64,000 bases of DNA from a bacterium (GTDB lineage Bacteria; Myxococcota; UBA727; JAUIJE01). The position numbers were made by a program, and so were the translations under genes. Below the pieces are notes generated by a model. It was not told where the DNA came from. It ran no database searches and saw only the letters and a program-made list of their open reading frames with translations. Of this stretch, positions 37,229 to 45,284 are shown piece by piece (positions within the stretch are counted from its first letter, which is position 1; each line of letters opens with the position of its first letter). The stretch covers positions 248,001 to 312,000 of the forward strand of contig JAUIJE010000004.1 of NCBI GenBank assembly GCA_030431455.1, read 5' to 3'.

Positions 37229-39292
37229 TCAGAAGCTCACGCCGTACATCTTTTCGTTGTACTGCGAGACCATGCGGTCGCTCGAGAACTGCCACAGCGA
37301 CGTGGCCATCGCCCGGCGCGCCATCGCGCGGAAAGCCTGGCCCCCGTCGTCGTAGAAGGCCGGGATGACCTTCTGTTCGAGGATGTCGTAGAGGGCCCCC
37401 GCGTCTTGGGCGTCGCCCTCTTCGCCCGCGGCTGGGTCCTGGTGTTCGCCGATGGCCCATCCATTGGTCGCGTCGAACCCTTCGTCCCACCACCCGTCGA
37501 GGATCGACAGGTTGGGCGCGCCGTTCATCGCGGCCTTCATGCCCGAGGTGCCGCTCGCTTCGCGCGGCCGGCGCGGGTTGTTGAGCCACACGTCGACCCC
37601 CTGGGTGAGGGCTTGGCCCAGCGGCATGTTGTAGCCCTCGATGTAGGCCACGCGGCCGCACAGGGCGGGGTTTTGGCTGTGCTCGAGCACCTCCTTGATC
37701 AACCCTTGGCCCATCGCGTCGGCGGGGTGGGCTTTGCCCGCGAACAAGAACTGCACCGGGCGCTCCTCGTGCGACACCATGCGAATGAGCCGGTCGAGGT
37801 CGCGGAAGATGAGCGTGGCGCGCTTGTAGGTCGCAAACCGCCGCGCGAACCCGATGGTGAGCGCGTCGGGGTCGAGGCGCAGCTGGCGCTTTTGGTGTTC
37901 GCTCGGGCCGTGGCCGTGCCGGGTGAGCATCTCGTTGTGCCGGTGCCGGGCGATGTGGAACAGGCGGCGCTTTTGCGGCAGGTGGGCCTGCCAGATCACG
38001 TCGTCGCCGATTTTGCGCAGCGCGGCGTCGGCCTCGTCGATGGTGGTCGCGGGCACGCGCAGCCGGCCGGTGGCGTCGCGCGACGCCAGCCCGGCCTCGA
38101 CGTACAGGCTGCCCATTTCCGGCCCCACCCACGTCGGCGGGTGCACCCCGTTGGTCAGGCCGAACAGCGGGCTGGCGGAGATGCCCTTCCAGGTGTCGTG
38201 CGCGACCTGACCGTGCAGTTGGCTCACGCCGTTTTGCACATGAGCGTGACGCAGCCCGAACGCGGTCATGTCGAAGTGTGCATGATCATTGTCCGCCCCC
38301 GCCCCCCAGGCGTGCACGTCTTCGAGGGAGAGCCCGGCTTGCTCGAGGTAGGGCCCGAGCAAGCGGTCGAACAGACCCCGCTCGAACCGCTCGTTGCCCG
38401 CGGGCACCGGGGTGTGGATGGTGAAGCCGGTGGCGGCGGTGAGTTGGCGGCGGGCGTCGTCGATGGCCACGCCTTTTTCCTTGGCCAAACGCAGCCGCTC
38501 GAGGAGCAGCAGCGCGCTGTGGCCCTCGTTGAGGTGGTAGAGGTCGGGCTCGATGCCGAGCGCGGTCAACGCCCGGACCCCGCCGATGCCGAGCACGATC
38601 TCTTGGCACAGGCGCGCCTCGCGCGAGCCCACGTACAGCGAGTGGGTGATGCCGCGGAACTCCTCGGGGTTGTCGTCGCGATCGGTGTCGAGCAACAAAC
38701 ACGAGGTCCGGCCCACTTGGGCAAGCCACACCGACGCGCGGAGCGAGCGTTCGCCCAGGGGGACCTCGACGACGAGGGCGCCCTTGCCGCCGGGGTCTTT
38801 GACCGGCCGGACGGGGGTGCGGGACAGATCGATGCGCTCTTGGTTGTGTTGTTGCTCGTTGTGCGGCCCCACCGTCTGGTGGAAGTACGCGCGGCGGTAC
38901 AGAAGGCCCACCCCGAGCAAGGGCAGGTCGAGGTCGGAGGCGCTCTTGAGGTGGTCGCCGGCGAGGATGCCGAGGCCCCCCGAGTAAATGGGCAGGGCCG
39001 GGTCGACGCCGAACTCCGCGCAGAAGTAGGCCACGGTCGGGGTCTTGTGGGGGGTGACCTCGGGCAGGACCGCGAGGGCGGCTTTGACGTCGGCGTGATC
39101 GCGGCGGGCTTCGAGGGTGGCGGCGGCGGTGGTGGGGAGCGCGCGGAGGGCCGCGTAGGTGTCGTCGGCTTCGGTCAAGGCGCACAGGCCGCGCTTGAGT
39201 TTGGGGTGCCAGGACCAGGCGAGGTTGTAGACCAGCGCCTCGAGGTCTTCGGGCAGGTGCAGGGCGGCCGATTCGGTGGCGATATTCGTCAT
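37229..39292 (-). CDS. glgP: Alpha-glucan (glycogen) phosphorylase, short bacterial type
   Basis: Phosphorolysis of alpha-1,4-glucans to glucose 1-phosphate; cytoplasmic, PLP-dependent GT35. 687 residues, on the short side for the bacterial/archaeal alpha-glucan phosphorylases that begin with a DUF3417-like N-terminus (ALVYNLAWSWHPK). Seen: YFCAEFGVDPALPIYSGGLGILAGDHLKSASDLDLP, FTIHTPVPAGNERF, TNGVHPPTW, and the PLP-lysine region EASGTSGMKAAMNGAPNLS near 595. Together with the imported maltodextrins from the neighbouring mal operon it would feed glycolysis. It is divergent from the esterase gene; ATG 39292 has a weak GGAGA ribosome-binding site. It is followed by 109 bases before the AgmX-like lipoprotein gene. 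Confidence 0.92.
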   Translation of the reverse strand: MTNIATESAALHLPEDLEALVYNLAWSWHPKLKRGLCALTEADDTYAALRALPTTAAATLEARRDHADVKAALAVLPEVTPHKTPTVAYFCAEFGVDPALPIYSGGLGILAGDHLKSASDLDLPLLGVGLLYRRAYFHQTVGPHNEQQHNQERIDLSRTPVRPVKDPGGKGALVVEVPLGERSLRASVWLAQVGRTSCLLLDTDRDDNPEEFRGITHSLYVGSREARLCQEIVLGIGGVRALTALGIEPDLYHLNEGHSALLLLERLRLAKEKGVAIDDARRQLTAATGFTIHTPVPAGNERFERGLFDRLLGPYLEQAGLSLEDVHAWGAGADNDHAHFDMTAFGLRHAHVQNGVSQLHGQVAHDTWKGISASPLFGLTNGVHPPTWVGPEMGSLYVEAGLASRDATGRLRVPATTIDEADAALRKIGDDVIWQAHLPQKRRLFHIARHRHNEMLTRHGHGPSEHQKRQLRLDPDALTIGFARRFATYKRATLIFRDLDRLIRMVSHEERPVQFLFAGKAHPADAMGQGLIKEVLEHSQNPALCGRVAYIEGYNMPLGQALTQGVDVWLNNPRRPREASGTSGMKAAMNGAPNLSILDGWWDEGFDATNGWAIGEHQDPAAGEEGDAQDAGALYDILEQKVIPAFYDDGGQAFRAMARRAMATSLWQFSSDRMVSQYNEKMYGVSF

Positions 39293-39367
39293 GGGAGCGT
39301 CTCCAGGCGATCGAAGCGGCAGGGGTCGCGCAGATCTGGGGCTTTTGCAATCGGCGTGCGAACCCCG

Positions 39368-39395
39368 TTGTCGGCCGGGTCGGGGGTGCTACCGA
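39368..39395 (+). promoter_or_regulatory. Predicted leaderless promoter of the esterase gene
   Basis: TTGTCG (39368-39373), 16-base spacer, TACCGA (39390-39395), six bases to ATG 39402. No ribosome-binding site present. Confidence 0.5.
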
Positions 39396-39401
39396 TCGAG
39401 C

Positions 39402-41024
39402 ATGCGCCTGACACCTGTTTTCTTGTTGTTGTGGGGAATCCTTGGGCTGGCCGCGTGCCCGACCACCGCGCCCGGCGTCGATGCCGGGCCCGGTGACGGC
39501 GATGGGGACGGCGACGGCGACGGCGACGGGGACGGTGACGGGGACGGTGACGGCGACGGTGACGGCGACGGGGATGGTGACGGCGACGGCGACGGTGACG
39601 GGGACGGTGACGGCGACGGCGACGGCGACTGCGGGACCCTCGACCCGGGCATCGCGCCCGAGGTGTTTTATGATGGTCGGTTCGCGTACGTGCCGGGCTT
39701 CCCGATGGGCAACGGGCTCGAGGACCGGGAGCTTCGCGTGTTTTTGCCCGCGAACTACGACGGCACCGACGAGCGCTACCGGGTGATGTACCTGCACGAC
39801 GGGCAGAATCTGTTCGACGCGGCCACCGCCAGCTTCGGGGTGGAGTGGAGCGTCGACGAGAACTTGGACTTCATCACCGACGAAGGCCGGGTCCCGCCCA
39901 CCATCGTGGTCGGCATCGACAACACCGCCGCGCGCATGGAGGACTACACCCCCGACGTGGACGCTGCGTTCGGCGGGGGCAACGGCGACGCCTACCTCGA
40001 GGCGGTGCGCGACCGGATCCGGCCCTTCATCAACGCGACCTTCCGCACCAAGTGCGGCCGGGCCGACACCGGGATGGGGGGCTCCAGCCTGGGCGGCCTC
40101 ATCACCCTGCGGGCGATGGAACTGCACGGCGACGTCTATGGTCGGTTCGCCGCGGTCTCGCCCTCTCTGTGGTGGAACAATGCGTCTGCATTGGGCCGGC
40201 TGCAGGCCAGCGGTCTCGCCGTGCTCCCCGACCGGGTGTGGCTCGACGCGGGCAGCGACGAAGGGGACGTGCTCCCCTCGGGGCTCTCGAGCACAATCCA
40301 AGACGTGCGCGACTACGCCAACGCCTTGCGGGGCCTGGGCCTGGTCGACGGGGCCGACCTCGGGGTGCTCGAGGACATCGGGGGCCAGCACAACGAGACC
40401 TCGTGGGCTTCGCGGGTGGGGCACATCCTGCGGTTCACCGCGGGCGACGAGGTGTTCGACATGGCGCCGGATGCGCTCACGGTGTGGGCGCCGTCCGCCG
40501 AGACCGGCGCGGGGGGGACCATCGCCCTGTCGTTGGAGGCCCCGCGCAACTTTCAACGCCTGAGCCCGCCGCTGTCCGCGTCCAGCGTCGACGTGAACCC
40601 TGCGGGGGTGTTCGATGTGGGGGCGGGGGAGGTCACGGCGTTGTCCGCGGGGGCGGCGATCGTGACCGTGACCCTCGACGGGCTGACCCATCGCGTGGTG
40701 TTGCAAAATGACCTGCCCGACGACGTCGGCGTGGTGTTCGACGTGACCGTGCCCGCGGGGGCGAGCCCGGTGCACGTCAGCGGCAACGCCGCCTCGCTGG
40801 GGGCGTTCGACGGGGTGGGCATCATGCTCGACGACCTCGGGGGCGACCACTTCCTGGGCCTGACCACGGTGCCGCGCAACCAACTGCTCGAATACAAGTA
40901 CACCCAGGGCTCGTGGCTCACCGTCGAGAAAGGCCCGGGGGGCGAAGAGCTCGGGAACCGGGCGTTGACCCCCGCGGGGCCGGCGTGGCTCGTCGATGCC
41001 GTGGGCAGCTTCGCCGTGCCCTGA
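39402..41024 (+). CDS. Esterase lipoprotein with (Gly-Asp)23 linker and CBM20-like tail
   Basis: 540 residues. Lipobox LAAC (Cys19), then a Gly-Asp dipeptide repeated 23 times (residues 31-76), then an esterase-D / enterochelin-esterase-type alpha/beta hydrolase (about 85-340): [14 protein letters not shown], nucleophile elbow [14 protein letters not shown], and a late His in [10 protein letters not shown]. After that come an Ig-like Big_2-type segment (about 370-440) and a CBM20-like domain ([37 protein letters not shown]). The starch-binding-like tail and its place next to glgP suggest an enzyme acting on substituted alpha-glucan, which is inference. No ribosome-binding site; leaderless-type promoter at 39368-39395. 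Confidence 0.82.
39492..39629. repeat. Hexanucleotide microsatellite coding (Gly-Asp)23
   Basis: 138 bases of GG(C/T/G)GA(C/T) units, 23 copies. Third-base differences among copies keep the reading frame but show that the tract is not freshly expanded. It sits between the lipobox and the esterase domain as a long acidic flexible spacer. On the opposite strand it produces a meaningless Ser-Pro repeat frame. Confidence 0.95.
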
Positions 41025-41063
41025 GCGATCGGCCCCGCAACCACATTTGTGACCAAATCTTTC

Positions 41064-41092
41064 TTGTCGGCACCGTTCGCGGGGCCTACATA
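41064..41092 (+). promoter_or_regulatory. Predicted promoter of the dihaem peroxidase gene
   Basis: TTGTCG (41064-41069), 17-base spacer, TACATA (41087-41092). The expected transcript start is near 41099, giving a leader of about 78 bases with an AGGAGAAGG ribosome-binding site before ATG 41177. Confidence 0.45.
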
Positions 41093-41176
41093 CGCGGTGT
41101 GGGGGACGTCACCGGGTCCGCGCAAGCCGCGGATCGCGGGCGAGGTCGACGACGTCGTCCGCAACAGGAGAAGGCC

Positions 41177-42301
41177 ATGTCATCGTCATCCGTTCCCTTT
41201 GCGCTCGCCGCGTTCGCGGTGGCCCTCACCGGCTGTTCCCCGAAGACCGAGCCGTCCCCCCCCGTCGACAAGCCCGCGCCCGCCGCGGCCGGCGGGGAAG
41301 CCGCCGCGGCCGGCGGGGAAGCCGCCGCGGCCGGCGGGGAAGCCATCGATCGCGCCGCGTTTGCCGCGTTCACCCCGCTGGCCGCGCCCGCGGCCGCGAC
41401 CGACGAGGCCACCCAAGCCCGGATCAAGCTCGGCCAAACGCTCTACTGGGACACGCGCTTGTCGAAGAACCACGACGTGAGCTGCAACTCGTGCCACGAC
41501 CTGTCGACCTTTGGCGTAGACAACAAAAAGACCTCCAGCGGCCACAAGGGCCAGCTCGGGGGCCGCAACTCGCCGACCACGTTCAACGCCGCCCTGCACT
41601 TCGCCCAGTTCTGGGACGGGCGCGCCCAGGACGTCGAGGAACAAGCCCTCGGGCCCGTGCTCAACCCGGTGGAGATGGCGATGCCGGACGAGGCTTCGGT
41701 GTTGCGCGTGCTCACCTCCATCCCCGGCTATGCCCCATTGTTCAAAAAGGCGTTCCCTGAGGACAAAGACCCGATCACCTTCGTCAACATGGGCCGCGCC
41801 ATCGGGGCGTTCGAGCGCCAGCTGATCACCCCGTCGGCGTGGGACAGGTTCCTCGCGGGGGACGACGCGGCGGTGTCCGCCGACGTCCGCGCCGGGGCCA
41901 AGGCGTATCTCGCCGCGGGCTGCACCGCGTGCCACATGGGGGCGACCTACGGCGGCTCGATGTACCAGAAGCTCGGCTTGGTGAAGCCGTGGCCCCAGCT
42001 CGCCGACAACGGGCGGTCGGACATCACCAAGAACGACGCGGAGAAGTTCTTTTTTAAGGTGCCCTCGCTGCGCAACGTGACCAAGACCGGTCCCTACCTG
42101 CACGACGGGTCGGAGACAGACCTCACCACCGTGGTGAAAAAGATGGGCGAGCACCAACTCGGGCGCACGCTGTCCGACGACGACGCCCAACAGATCGTGA
42201 CCTTCTTGGGGGCCCTTGAAGCCGCCCCCGACCCGACGCTCCTCGCGGAGCCGACGCTTCCGCCGTCGGGACCGAAAACGCCGGCGCCCGACCCCAGCTG
42301 A
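41177..42301 (+). CDS. Dihaem cytochrome c peroxidase-like lipoprotein
   Basis: 374 residues. Lipobox LTGC (Cys20), a 21-base tandem repeat coding an Ala/Gly/Glu linker (about 36-56), then a bacterial cytochrome c peroxidase (MauG/CcpA family) domain: first haem site CNSCH (103-107), TFNAALHFAQFWDGRAQDVEEQA typical of the family, second haem site CTACH (249-253), and a C-terminal SLRNVTKTGPYLHDGS. It reduces hydrogen peroxide with electrons from small cytochromes on the periplasmic side. Start is set by the AGGAGAAGG ribosome-binding site. 27 bases separate it from the PilZ gene. Confidence 0.92.
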   Translation: MSSSSVPFALAAFAVALTGCSPKTEPSPPVDKPAPAAAGGEAAAAGGEAAAAGGEAIDRAAFAAFTPLAAPAAATDEATQARIKLGQTLYWDTRLSKNHDVSCNSCHDLSTFGVDNKKTSSGHKGQLGGRNSPTTFNAALHFAQFWDGRAQDVEEQALGPVLNPVEMAMPDEASVLRVLTSIPGYAPLFKKAFPEDKDPITFVNMGRAIGAFERQLITPSAWDRFLAGDDAAVSADVRAGAKAYLAAGCTACHMGATYGGSMYQKLGLVKPWPQLADNGRSDITKNDAEKFFFKVPSLRNVTKTGPYLHDGSETDLTTVVKKMGEHQLGRTLSDDDAQQIVTFLGALEAAPDPTLLAEPTLPPSGPKTPAPDPS

Positions 42302-42328: not shown

Positions 42329-43648
42329 ATGAACGACCCATTCCTTCCGTTGGCGCCCCCCGTCGCCGACAACCGACGCCGCGCCCACCGCGTGTTCATC
42401 CCCGCGCGGGTGGTGCTGGTGGGGCCGCAGGGCCGCGTCGAAGGGCGCGTGCTCGACGCGTCGGCGTCCGGCCTGCGCCTGGAGCTCGCCGGCGACGTCG
42501 GCCCCGACCAGTGGCGCGCCCAGCTCGAGGGTTGGGTGGCGCGCGACCGCGACCTCACCGTGCGCGCGCGCTGGGTGGACCGGGCGGGGGGCGATCGGGT
42601 CTTGGTCGGGGTCGAAGCCGAAGGCGACCTGTCCCAGGTCATCGACCGCGAACGCGCGGCCTACGGGGACCTGGACCGGGTGCTCGCCCGCCCCGCGGTC
42701 GACGTCACCGCGCTCGGCGCGTTGGCCGCCCGCAGCTTGGCCGAGGCCGACGGGCCGGTCTCGGCGTTCATCGCCCGGTACAACGAGGAGGTGTCCACCC
42801 CCCGGGCGGAATACCTCTGGGGGTGGGTGCTCGCCGCCCTCGACCTGACCGCGCTCCCCGGGGGGCGGCCGGACCTCGCCGACGACGCGCGCGCGGCCAA
42901 GTTCCTCGGGGTCCTGCTCGACGTGGTGCTCGACGACATCGCCGACGGCGGGGCCAGCCCCGAGGAGGTGGCGCAGGCCTGTGACGTGGTGTTCCGGGGG
43001 GCGGCCCCGTCGGCGTTCGACCCCTGGCGGGCCCGCGCGCTGCGGCTCGGCCGGGACACCTGGCGGGAGATTTTGCACATCTGCGGCCGCTTTCCACAGT
43101 TCGAGCGGCTGCAGGGATTTCTCGCCTTCGACTACCGGCAGCTGGAATCGGCCATGCACTACGCGGCGCTGCTCAATCGATTCCCGTTCGCGGCCAACAC
43201 CATCGAGAACACCGCCTACCAATGTCACAACATGCACATGGTGGCGTCCGGGACCATCGACTTGATGACCCAACCGCGGCTGGCCGAGGAGGACATGGGG
43301 CCGGTGCGCGAGCTGCTCTACTATGCCCAGTTGATGGGCCGGGTGGGCAATGCGGTGACCACCTGGCCGCGCGAGATTGTGCAGCGGGATTTCACGAGTT
43401 CATTTTTTGCCGCCCTGTCCGAGCTGAGCGGCGTGGCCATGGACCGCCTGGTCACCCTCAGCGTCGACGATTTGCGGGGCTTGGAGCACAAGGTCCAAGC
43501 CGAGCGGGCGCTGCTGCAGCGGTGGTTGCAGTACCGCGACCACGCCCGTCAGGTGGCGGGGCGGGTGCGGTCGCTGGCCGCGCACGCCTACGTCGACGGG
43601 CTGGAGCAGCTGCTCTTTTTCCACCTCGCCTCGCGCGGCCAGAAGTAG
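42329..43648 (+). CDS. PilZ domain fused to a class I terpene synthase-like domain
   Basis: 439 residues, no signal peptide. Residues 15-100 form a PilZ domain, a cyclic-di-GMP sensor: RRRAHR at 16-21 and DASASG at 43-48 are the two ligand-binding motifs (RxxxR and D/NxSxxG). The remaining ~330 residues are all-helical. They contain VVLDDIADG with a DDxxD motif at 202-206 preceded by a hydrophobic helix, and 139 residues later GNAVTTWPREIVQRD, which matches the NSE/DTE metal motif (N341-x3-T345-x3-E349); both motifs and their spacing are those of class I terpenoid synthases. The region after the second motif (RDFTSSFFAALSEL) also looks like the loop after it in terpene cyclases. This identification is by eye. 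PilZ is certain; the second part could also be an inactive isoprenoid-synthase-fold relative. Neighbours offer no isoprenoid genes. Confidence 0.72.
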   Translation: MNDPFLPLAPPVADNRRRAHRVFIPARVVLVGPQGRVEGRVLDASASGLRLELAGDVGPDQWRAQLEGWVARDRDLTVRARWVDRAGGDRVLVGVEAEGDLSQVIDRERAAYGDLDRVLARPAVDVTALGALAARSLAEADGPVSAFIARYNEEVSTPRAEYLWGWVLAALDLTALPGGRPDLADDARAAKFLGVLLDVVLDDIADGGASPEEVAQACDVVFRGAAPSAFDPWRARALRLGRDTWREILHICGRFPQFERLQGFLAFDYRQLESAMHYAALLNRFPFAANTIENTAYQCHNMHMVASGTIDLMTQPRLAEEDMGPVRELLYYAQLMGRVGNAVTTWPREIVQRDFTSSFFAALSELSGVAMDRLVTLSVDDLRGLEHKVQAERALLQRWLQYRDHARQVAGRVRSLAAHAYVDGLEQLLFFHLASRGQK

Positions 43649-43651
43649 CGG

Positions 43652-44314
43652 TCAGCCCGGCGGCGCGCTCGAGGGGGCGGCGGGGGCGGGGCCGGACCCG
43701 GCGTCTTCCTGTTCGCGGAACCGGCGAATCAGGGAACGGTCGATCTCTACCTCGATGCGGGTCTTGACGTCGGAGAGGCGGTAGCAGCGCACCGACCCAT
43801 CCATGCCAAGCTTGCGCAACACACCCTCCCAGGTGCCGAGCTGCAGAGACTCGTTGAAGGTCCACACGTTGTCGAAGGTGACCTCGATGAGCTCGTCGGA
43901 GATGTCGACGTGCACGCTGCCGGGGGACACCACCATGGAGTAGCAGCGCGGGGCGAGGCGGATGATCGACAAGGGGCTCAACGCCCCGGCGAAGACGGAC
44001 TTGCCCACCATCGTCTGCGAGAAGTTCTCGTAGATGTAGTGGCCATGCCGGCGAAAACCCTCCTGGGGGGGCAGGTGCGGGAACACCCGGTGCATCGCCC
44101 GGGTCAGCAGCTCGAGGTAGTCGGGCAGCGGGACCCACCGAAAACCGCTCCAACCCGACGCCCCGGTGCGGGTGAGCCCGTCGGCGGGGTGGCCGGCGCG
44201 TTCGACATGGTCGAGCACCCAGTTGAGGAACATGCCGCGGATCTGCGCGCCTTCCGGCACGCTTTGGATGTACGCCCGGACCTCCGCCGGCAGATCACCG
44301 CCAAACCCGCTCAC
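43652..44314 (-). CDS. DUF2378 family protein (myxobacterial)
   Basis: 220 residues, cytoplasmic. The sequence matches the DUF2378/TIGR02265 group known mainly from Myxococcales, of unknown function: start EIRGMFLNWVL-like QIRGMFLNWVLDHV, PLPDYLELLTRAMHRVFP, FRRHGHYIYENFSQTMVGK, and the C-terminal beta-rich TFDNVWTFNESLQLGTWEG segment. The GTG at 44314 is the only start in frame and has TAACAT six bases before it, so the mRNA is probably leaderless. Convergent with the PilZ gene, three bases apart. Confidence 0.8.
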   Translation of the reverse strand: MSGFGGDLPAEVRAYIQSVPEGAQIRGMFLNWVLDHVERAGHPADGLTRTGASGWSGFRWVPLPDYLELLTRAMHRVFPHLPPQEGFRRHGHYIYENFSQTMVGKSVFAGALSPLSIIRLAPRCYSMVVSPGSVHVDISDELIEVTFDNVWTFNESLQLGTWEGVLRKLGMDGSVRCYRLSDVKTRIEVEIDRSLIRRFREQEDAGSGPAPAAPSSAPPG

Positions 44315-44399: not shown

Positions 44400-45284
44400 T
44401 CAGGACCCGGCGTCTGGCGCGAACGCCGGCCGCGCGAAGAGCCACAGCAACAGGTTCAAGCCGACCGCCACCGCGATGCCCACCGCGCCGGTGGCGCCGA
44501 CCTCGAGGTCGCTCCCGCCGCGCAAGAACATCATGCCGAACCCCGCGCTCGCGTTGAGGGTCCCGTGCATCATCGCCGCCGCGATCACCGAGCCGGACCG
44601 CAGCCGCACATACTGGAACAGCGGCGCGAGGGCGACGCACCAGGCCGTCATCCAGACCACCCCGAGCACCGGGTGCGCGGGGTAGTTGTGCCCCTGCAGA
44701 ATCAGCGGCGCGTGCCACACGCCCCAGACCGCGCCGATCGCGAACGCGCTTTTCCAAAAGCCGAGCCCCCGCCAGCGTTCGTACAAAAAGCCGCGCCACC
44801 CGAGTTCCTCCCCGAAGCCGGCCACCGCGTTGATCGTCACCCCCGCGACCAGCGCTTGCGCGCTCATCAGCACCGGCAAAAGGCCGCCGGGCATCGTCTC
44901 CAACTCGGCTTTCGCCTCGGCGAGGGCGTCGGGCGGCAACGTGCCGCTCAGCCGCTCGAACAACCCGCTCATGTCGCCCGACCACGTGACGTCCGGCCAC
45001 AACAGGCCCGCCCCGAGGCACAGCCAGGCGTACCCGAACATCCCCAACACCCCGACCAGCCACCACCGGTTGGGCGCGGCCAGGGCCCCGAGCGGACGCA
45101 GCACCTTTTCGCCGGCCGCACGCTGCGCCACCACCGCCCCCACCAACGGGCCAAACATGTAGGCGGCCCCGATCAAGGTGGTCACAATTTGGCGGCCAGC
45201 GCCCTCGTCGGGGACGACCAAGTACTGCAGGCCGGCCAACGCCCAACTCACCGCAAACGCCGTCACCACATATCGCCTGGTCAT
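44400..45284 (-). CDS. CPBP-family intramembrane metalloprotease
   Basis: 294 residues, about eight membrane helices. Motif 1 is GEELGWRGFL with the Glu-Glu pair at 159-160 and Arg164, motif 2 is WGVWHAPLILQG with the His, motif 3 is MMHGTLNAS. These are the catalytic residues of the Abi/CAAX-processing (CPBP, Rce1-like) family. Substrates are usually unknown; some members process prenylated proteins or bacteriocins. GGAG lies shortly before ATG 45284. It is not obviously linked to the genes around it, although its link to prenylation makes the neighbouring terpene-synthase-like protein worth noting. Confidence 0.88.
   Translation of the reverse strand: MTRRYVVTAFAVSWALAGLQYLVVPDEGAGRQIVTTLIGAAYMFGPLVGAVVAQRAAGEKVLRPLGALAAPNRWWLVGVLGMFGYAWLCLGAGLLWPDVTWSGDMSGLFERLSGTLPPDALAEAKAELETMPGGLLPVLMSAQALVAGVTINAVAGFGEELGWRGFLYERWRGLGFWKSAFAIGAVWGVWHAPLILQGHNYPAHPVLGVVWMTAWCVALAPLFQYVRLRSGSVIAAAMMHGTLNASAGFGMMFLRGGSDLEVGATGAVGIAVAVGLNLLLWLFARPAFAPDAGS

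Follow-up and report, generated by a model that had tools for sequence, protein, structure and literature searches.

Can a terpene synthase carry the receptor for a second messenger in its own polypeptide chain? The question is raised by one gene in the window, the 64,000-nucleotide stretch of a Myxococcota contig analyzed here, which an initial annotation described as a PilZ domain fused to a class I terpene synthase or a relic of one. Bacterial terpene synthases are usually regarded as controlled at transcription or through substrate supply. If the fusion is what it appears to be, a synthase whose chain includes a receptor for a second messenger would be, as far as we have found, the first that is allosterically signaled.

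The fusion gene, its PilZ domain and its surroundings

The fusion gene, its parts and its immediate neighbors are as follows (window coordinates, with strand).

40913-42301 (+): di-haem cytochrome c peroxidase, MauG-like (PF03150, E 1.6e-52)
42329-43648 (+): PilZ–class I terpene-synthase-like fusion protein, 439 amino acids (open frame and translation)
42371-42616 (+): PilZ domain, residues 15-96 (Pfam PF07238, E 4.5e-6)
42377-42391 (+): RxxxR c-di-GMP motif, R17-R21, within RRRAHR 16-21 (sequence)
42455-42472 (+): DxSxxG c-di-GMP motif, DASASG 43-48 (sequence)
42656-43645 (+): predicted domain with the class I terpene synthase fold, residues ~110-439, of which ~134-439 are confidently modeled (AlphaFold2; Foldseek and VIA-align against the PDB; hhalign)
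42932-42946 (+): DDIAD (residues 202-206), the first metal motif, where helix 181-206 ends in the model; D202, D203, A205 and D206 invariant
43211-43213 (+): Thr295, at about the place of the canonical pyrophosphate-sensor Arg, 46 residues before N341 (alignment)
43349-43375 (+): second metal motif, NAVTTWPRE 341-349, in the late part of helix 320-352; N341, T345, R348 and E349 invariant
43388-43390 (+): invariant residue Asp354, which follows N341 by 13 residues, the arrangement of canonical NSE regions (E-x4-D) (alignments)
43652-44314 (-): DUF2378/TIGR02265 protein, convergent (PF09536, E 3.5e-13; TIGR02265 above cut-off)

The fusion gene is a single intact open frame of 439 codons with an ATG start, and the opposite strand contains a stop when read in frame. 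GC content by codon position (0.76/0.47/0.92) is alike in the PilZ part and the remainder and is typical of coding DNA in a genome of 70% GC, so the frame is coding-like. The frame, the motif positions and their spacing were all confirmed from the sequence, and the motif pair on which the initial annotation rested is therefore real.

The PilZ assignment was upheld by the Pfam search, in which PF07238 scored 27.4 bits against a cut-off of 22.5, and both c-di-GMP motifs, RxxxR and (D/N)xSxxG, are present where they had been placed. The domain presumably binds c-di-GMP, as its motifs suggest. The PilZ part of the AlphaFold2 model has a pLDDT of <50, and the model gives no PilZ–enzyme interface. 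The host genome encodes 14 GGDEF domains and two prenyl synthases, so messenger and substrate can both be present. No canonical class I synthase above cut-off was found in the host genome; its sole PF19086 match (E 0.12, with an internal stop) lies elsewhere in the genome and was dismissed as noise.

No isoprenoid gene lies beside the fusion gene. The MauG-like gene ends 27 bp before it and is possibly cotranscribed with it; this pairing was not seen at other loci. Nothing indicates that the DUF2378 neighbor belongs to the same system, and a DUF2378 neighbor shared between the window and an Archangium relative (L004) was rejected, as the two genes have no mutual tblastn match and differ in orientation. 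PADLOC detected no defense family. Farther out, a putative esterase gene (39276-41024, +) has a long (Gly-Asp)n linker near its N terminus, the repeat of which opens a long spurious frame on the opposite strand, and an Rce1-like (CPBP) membrane protease gene (44400-45284, -) lies 0.75 kb from the fusion gene with no sign of a functional link.

Predicted fold and metal motifs of the C-terminal domain

Residues ~110-439 on their own have no match in Pfam, in NCBIfam (above cut-off) or among PDB sequences. In the Pfam search, the fusion protein matched neither PF00348 (trans-isoprenyl diphosphate synthase) nor PF19086 (Terpene_syn_C_2), the latter judged by the gathering cut-off. Two relatives match PF19086 over nearly the whole model but below threshold (E 0.0023 and 0.026; the better at 18.2 bits versus the required 23.7). 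When a 15-member profile of the family was compared with PDB sequences, the top two hits were terpene synthases and were not significant (E 0.35 and 0.76).

The predicted structure is more informative. AlphaFold2, supplied with the family alignment, returned an all-helical model with pLDDT mostly >90 over residues ~134-439. Foldseek found 52 PDB matches at E ≤ 1e-3 (best, 2.3e-5), consisting of class I terpene synthases and a few trans-prenyl synthases (3nf2 and 3lmd). With VIA-align, terpene synthases from bacteria, fungi and plants scored Z 19.5-21.6 over ~250-300 aligned residues, on a scale where unrelated helical bundles score ~13-14. A separate model of a Patescibacteria-type relative (L014; pLDDT 92, pTM 0.91) reached Z 20-21.8 to class I terpene synthases. 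An hhalign comparison of the family with 25 canonical Myxococcota synthases gave P 3.9e-5 over 237 columns, with reversed and column-shuffled controls at P 0.2 or worse; the NSE motif was aligned and the Asp-rich motif was off by ~2 residues. The models thus contain the isoprenoid-synthase alpha-bundle of the class I terpene synthase superfamily, and the fold proposed in the initial annotation is borne out: structural matches are almost all terpene synthases, and Foldseek and VIA-align did not point to a fold unrelated to the isoprenoid synthases. The profile search that it had proposed for residues 110-439 recovered no family above cut-off, while the structure prediction proposed alongside gave the expected bundle. 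Because the family falls below the PF19086 cut-off and differs at characteristic residues, we place it in the fold superfamily and not in PF19086.

Conservation within the family peaks at the metal motifs. DDIAD and N-x3-T-x3-E lie 139 residues apart in the fusion protein, as first described, and at the canonical places on the predicted helices, with DDxxD/E at the end of helix D and (N/D)xxx(S/T)xxxE ~140 residues later. A DDxxD followed by N-x3-[ST]-x3-E at 120-160 residues arose in 0.04% of 200,000 shuffles of the same protein. Invariant positions in an alignment of 15 members are R159, K191, D202, D203, A205, D206, M302, D311, M313, Q334, N341, T345, R348, E349 and D354. Both motifs are kept in 29 of 31 sequences, the two exceptions being degenerate second copies. 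This conservation, together with the invariance in the 15 members, excludes chance occurrence. Since the window copy retains every family-invariant residue, it is unlikely to be the relic that the initial annotation had allowed for.

Canonical bacterial class I synthases (PF19086; for example epi-isozizaene, selinadiene and 10-epi-cubebol synthases) share with the new family the alpha-bundle (VIA-align Z ~20-22) and a DDxxD followed by an NSE-type motif on the same helices at similar spacing. The family nevertheless shows only ~6-14% identity to them over structural alignments, has invariant R159 and K191, and is fused or linked to signaling proteins. The NSE position that is usually D in canonical enzymes is A, M, L, V, S or W in the family; the fusion protein has the Ala remarked on in the initial annotation. 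By canonical spacing, Thr295 stands at about the position of the pyrophosphate-sensor Arg. The column holds Thr in the fusion protein, Arg in several relatives and Asp, Gln, Lys or Trp elsewhere; a sensor Arg ~46 residues before the NSE motif is thus not conserved. To our knowledge, this Arg is not universal in the superfamily, and its absence therefore weakens the claim of a canonical mechanism and not that of the fold. At the C terminus, the RY pair varies or is missing across the family.

Distribution, signaling partners and isoprenoid genes of the family

As judged from protein and profile searches, the domain family is wide and unannotated, occurring in Myxococcota, Planctomycetota, Bdellovibrionota, Patescibacteria and haloarchaea. 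When the proteins of 195 Myxococcota genomes were searched, four other genomes proved to carry the C-terminal domain, and a five-sequence profile scan of GTDB contigs returned 14 loci. These were in two Polyangium genomes, SKYG55 (an uncultured member of the Myxococcota), Archangium lansinium, the deltaproteobacterial metagenome-assembled genome (MAG) SJ496, a Pirellulales MAG, Candidatus Uabimicrobium, Bdellovibrio-like bacteria, Patescibacteria and the archaeon Halogeometricum. Sampled frequencies were 6/195 genomes in Myxococcota (one a short gene remnant), 13/241 in the phylum of Bdellovibrio, 7/372 in that of the Pirellulales MAG, 5/362 in the Patescibacteria sample and 34/375 in the phylum of Halogeometricum, fragments included. 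Six annotated haloarchaeal plasmids carry the domain as "hypothetical protein," the label in every annotated record seen. No relative was found on viral contigs.

The initial annotation suggested a search for further PilZ proteins that share this C-terminal region, and such proteins exist: besides the window protein, PilZ fusions occur in two Polyangium species and, twice, in SKYG55, where one of the copies has lost its NSE motif. The fusion with canonical PilZ motifs was confined to the window's genome among those searched. The PilZ domains of the Polyangium relatives and SKYG55 L010 (L009-L011) lack the N-terminal RxxxR, so c-di-GMP control cannot be general for the PilZ-bearing members; the TIGR02266 matches of the SKYG55 PilZ domains fall below cut-off. 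The Archangium relative instead carries a fused cNMP domain (PF00027, E 1.1e-16), the sole Pfam domain matched in that protein. PilZ-fused, cNMP-fused and part of the kinase-linked members form one group in the tree (support 96/92), and the Bdellovibrionota clade with P450 clusters is separate (100/100). The window protein sits on a long branch, its exact sister being unsure. The difference in PilZ type, canonical RxxxR in the window protein versus none in Polyangium and L010, suggests independent origins of the fusions; the tree can accommodate a single origin.

Several degenerate or altered copies were also seen. The second PilZ–synthase copy in SKYG55 (L095:103-2448, +) has lost its NSE motif (N, T and E replaced by Y, N and Q, respectively) and is likely a pseudoenzyme; the genome also encodes an intact paralogue. 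In Candidatus Uabimicrobium, a tandem degenerate synthase copy (L016:4464-5534, +) directly precedes an intact one. A third Archangium-type genome has a synthase without the cNMP domain, apparently through in-frame loss (L005:1336-2400, +), and another related genome retains only a short gene fragment (L056:1501-1608).

One clade of the family is recurrently coupled to signaling proteins. A histidine kinase is the next same-strand gene in 13/13 of the bacterial clade members examined that have no PilZ or cNMP fusion (L007, L012, L013, L014, L108, L112 and L165-L171), as assigned from Pfam matches and gene positions, with gaps ranging from overlap to 279 bp. These loci are not phylogenetically independent; they span Planctomycetota and several Patescibacteria lineages. 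The same arrangement was found for 1 of 274 background genes (19 stretches elsewhere, mostly in the same genomes) and for none of the 12 canonical synthase loci scored. The archaeal loci are mixed: PAS kinases adjoin the gene at L172, L174, L176 and L177, a divergent PAS-GAF-BAT-HTH_10 regulator adjoins L018, and many others have no kinase. PAS/BAT/HTH regulators stand beside the synthase in five of the six haloarchaeal plasmids (RefSeq records).

The gene partners of the relatives point to real isoprenoid chemistry. Two kinds of enzyme-fused relative are involved, one of them also occurring as adjacent genes.

L108:6076-9024 (-): DXS-like–synthase fusion, Planctomycetota
L168:2198-4192 (+): DXS-like–synthase fusion, Planctomycetota
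L165:1618-3846 (+): DXS-like–synthase fusion, Planctomycetota
L109:5892-7760 (+): synthase and SAM methyltransferase with a weak GPPMT match, Uabimicrobium
L110:5999-7816 (+): synthase and SAM methyltransferase with a weak GPPMT match, Uabimicrobium

In the Planctomycetota fusions, the synthase follows a DXS-like C-terminal half (TIGR00204, E 4e-25 for L108/L092, 4e-14 for L168 and weak for L165). The N-terminal TPP-binding half was not recognized in them, and a complete DXS was rejected, as the confident match covers the C-terminal half only. A geranylgeranyl-reductase-like gene lies upstream of the fusion at L108 and downstream of the synthase in SJ496. The methyltransferase of Candidatus Uabimicrobium is fused to the synthase (L096/L109) or encoded 9 bp downstream (L110). 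The pairing resembles the methyltransferase plus terpene synthase pathways for 2-methylisoborneol and sodorifen. Unlike in those pathways, the methyltransferase scores far below the GPPMT cut-off and the synthase belongs to the new family.

Patescibacteria, hosts with very small genomes, carry operons of prenyl synthase, IPP isomerase or a YjbQ-like gene, synthase and kinase. L014 (1458-5348) encodes a polyprenyl synthase (PF00348, E 2.1e-59), a type 1 IPP isomerase (above the NCBIfam cut-off), the synthase and a HisKA_7TM histidine kinase; the order at L171 (1632-6501) is the same, and L169 (90-3751) has a prenyl synthase, a YjbQ-like gene, the synthase and the kinase. In Bdellovibrionota (L015, L114 and L115), LysR, P450 and synthase genes are followed by those for FAD oxidoreductase, GST and Rieske oxygenase, confirmed by Pfam for L015 and assigned by similarity for the others. 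The P450 and synthase genes directly adjoin or overlap, and shorter versions of the cluster occur at other loci.

Candidate functions of the fusion protein

We consider, with moderate confidence, that the fusion protein is a second-messenger-controlled class I terpene synthase of an undescribed, signaling-coupled family. c-di-GMP would bind the N-terminal PilZ domain, and the bound domain would alter how active or accessible the C-terminal alpha-bundle is, or where it is located. Within the bundle, DDIAD and N-x3-T-x3-E would hold Mg2+ and ionize a prenyl diphosphate (candidates are GPP, FPP and GGPP), and a terpene hydrocarbon or alcohol would be released. Such a product could serve as a secreted metabolite, a terpenoid of the membrane or a signal. 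That PilZ gates the synthase is the simplest reading; catalysis, product and direction of c-di-GMP control in the fusion protein are what we infer on it. Counting against this explanation are the poorly modeled PilZ part, the lack of an isoprenoid gene beside the fusion gene, the missing sensor Arg and RY pair, the Polyangium and SKYG55 (L010) PilZ domains that have no N-terminal RxxxR, and the PilZ-fused SKYG55 copy with its lost NSE motif.

The same fold and motifs perform prenyl transfer in DabA (6vkz, Z 19.7), and the unusual sensor region with invariant R159 and K191 could reflect a different second substrate. A PilZ-controlled enzyme that passes a prenyl group to a small-molecule or protein acceptor without cyclization is nevertheless unlikely, as the clusters of relatives resemble terpenoid tailoring (P450, Rieske, FAD and GST) and contain GPPMT-like methyltransferases, both typical of cyclase pathways, and no conserved acceptor gene accompanies them. 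Chain elongation by a trans-isoprenyl diphosphate synthase has 3nf2 and 3lmd among the structural matches to commend it and is extremely improbable: N-x3-T-x3-E takes the place of the second Asp-rich DDxxD of such enzymes, PF00348 does not match, terpene synthases dominate the structural matches and some operons have a separate PF00348 enzyme.

The domain could instead be a noncatalytic ligand sensor, its fold binding prenyl diphosphates or terpenoids and relaying isoprenoid status to the signaling module. Such a role would fit the close association of the family with histidine kinases, PilZ and cNMP domains, and also the degenerate paralogues (L095 and L016b). We hold it to be quite unlikely, since mere binding would not need both metal motifs, which are invariant in nearly all members, and the partners (IPPS, IDI, DXS-like protein, methyltransferase and P450) suggest flux through an enzyme. 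An accidental fusion, in which PilZ and enzyme are not functionally coupled, would fit the finding of the exact architecture in one genome and has little probability: two Polyangium species and SKYG55 have PilZ of a different type attached to this domain, Archangium has a cNMP domain in that place, and unfused bacterial clade members have a histidine kinase next.

Kinase linkage in the relatives also leads us to propose, tentatively, a wider role that is possible for the clade as a whole. Its synthase may make a dedicated terpenoid that the adjacent histidine kinase, or the archaeal PAS/BAT regulator, perceives as a signal or uses as a cofactor. In Patescibacteria, the operon's own prenyl synthase and IPP isomerase would supply the pathway, and in myxobacteria c-di-GMP or a cyclic nucleotide would gate the synthase directly instead.

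Among known systems, PilZ effector proteins are alike in having an N-terminal PilZ domain with RxxxR and DxSxxG that controls a C-terminal domain of the same chain, but no terpene-synthase output for PilZ was found described in the open-access literature. In family 2 encapsulin systems, the operon of a cNMP-domain-bearing encapsulin encodes a separate terpene cyclase cargo, so a cyclic-nucleotide-binding domain and a terpene cyclase are encoded together as in the new family, and a C-methyltransferase and an IPP isomerase are sometimes included (PMC8346489). The new family differs from these systems (PMC8346489) in that the PilZ or cNMP domain is part of the synthase chain and no capsid domain was detected in the proteins searched. 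Searches of open PMC text turned up neither a PilZ- or cNMP-fused terpene synthase nor one that is paired with a histidine kinase, in agreement with the initial annotation, which knew of no such synthase; novelty of the signaling-coupled family is accordingly provisional.

The family spans bacteria and archaea, and the strong association in its genomes of terpene chemistry with signaling of the two-component or second-messenger kind suggests an undescribed connection between terpene chemistry and cell signaling. Its profile also provides a new genome-mining handle on cryptic terpenoid clusters, e.g., the P450/Rieske clusters of Bdellovibrionota. The conserved cryptic cluster in that phylum occurs at L015:3248-8445, L019, L020 and L113-L122, with a GFA-family protein as an alternative to the Rieske oxygenase.
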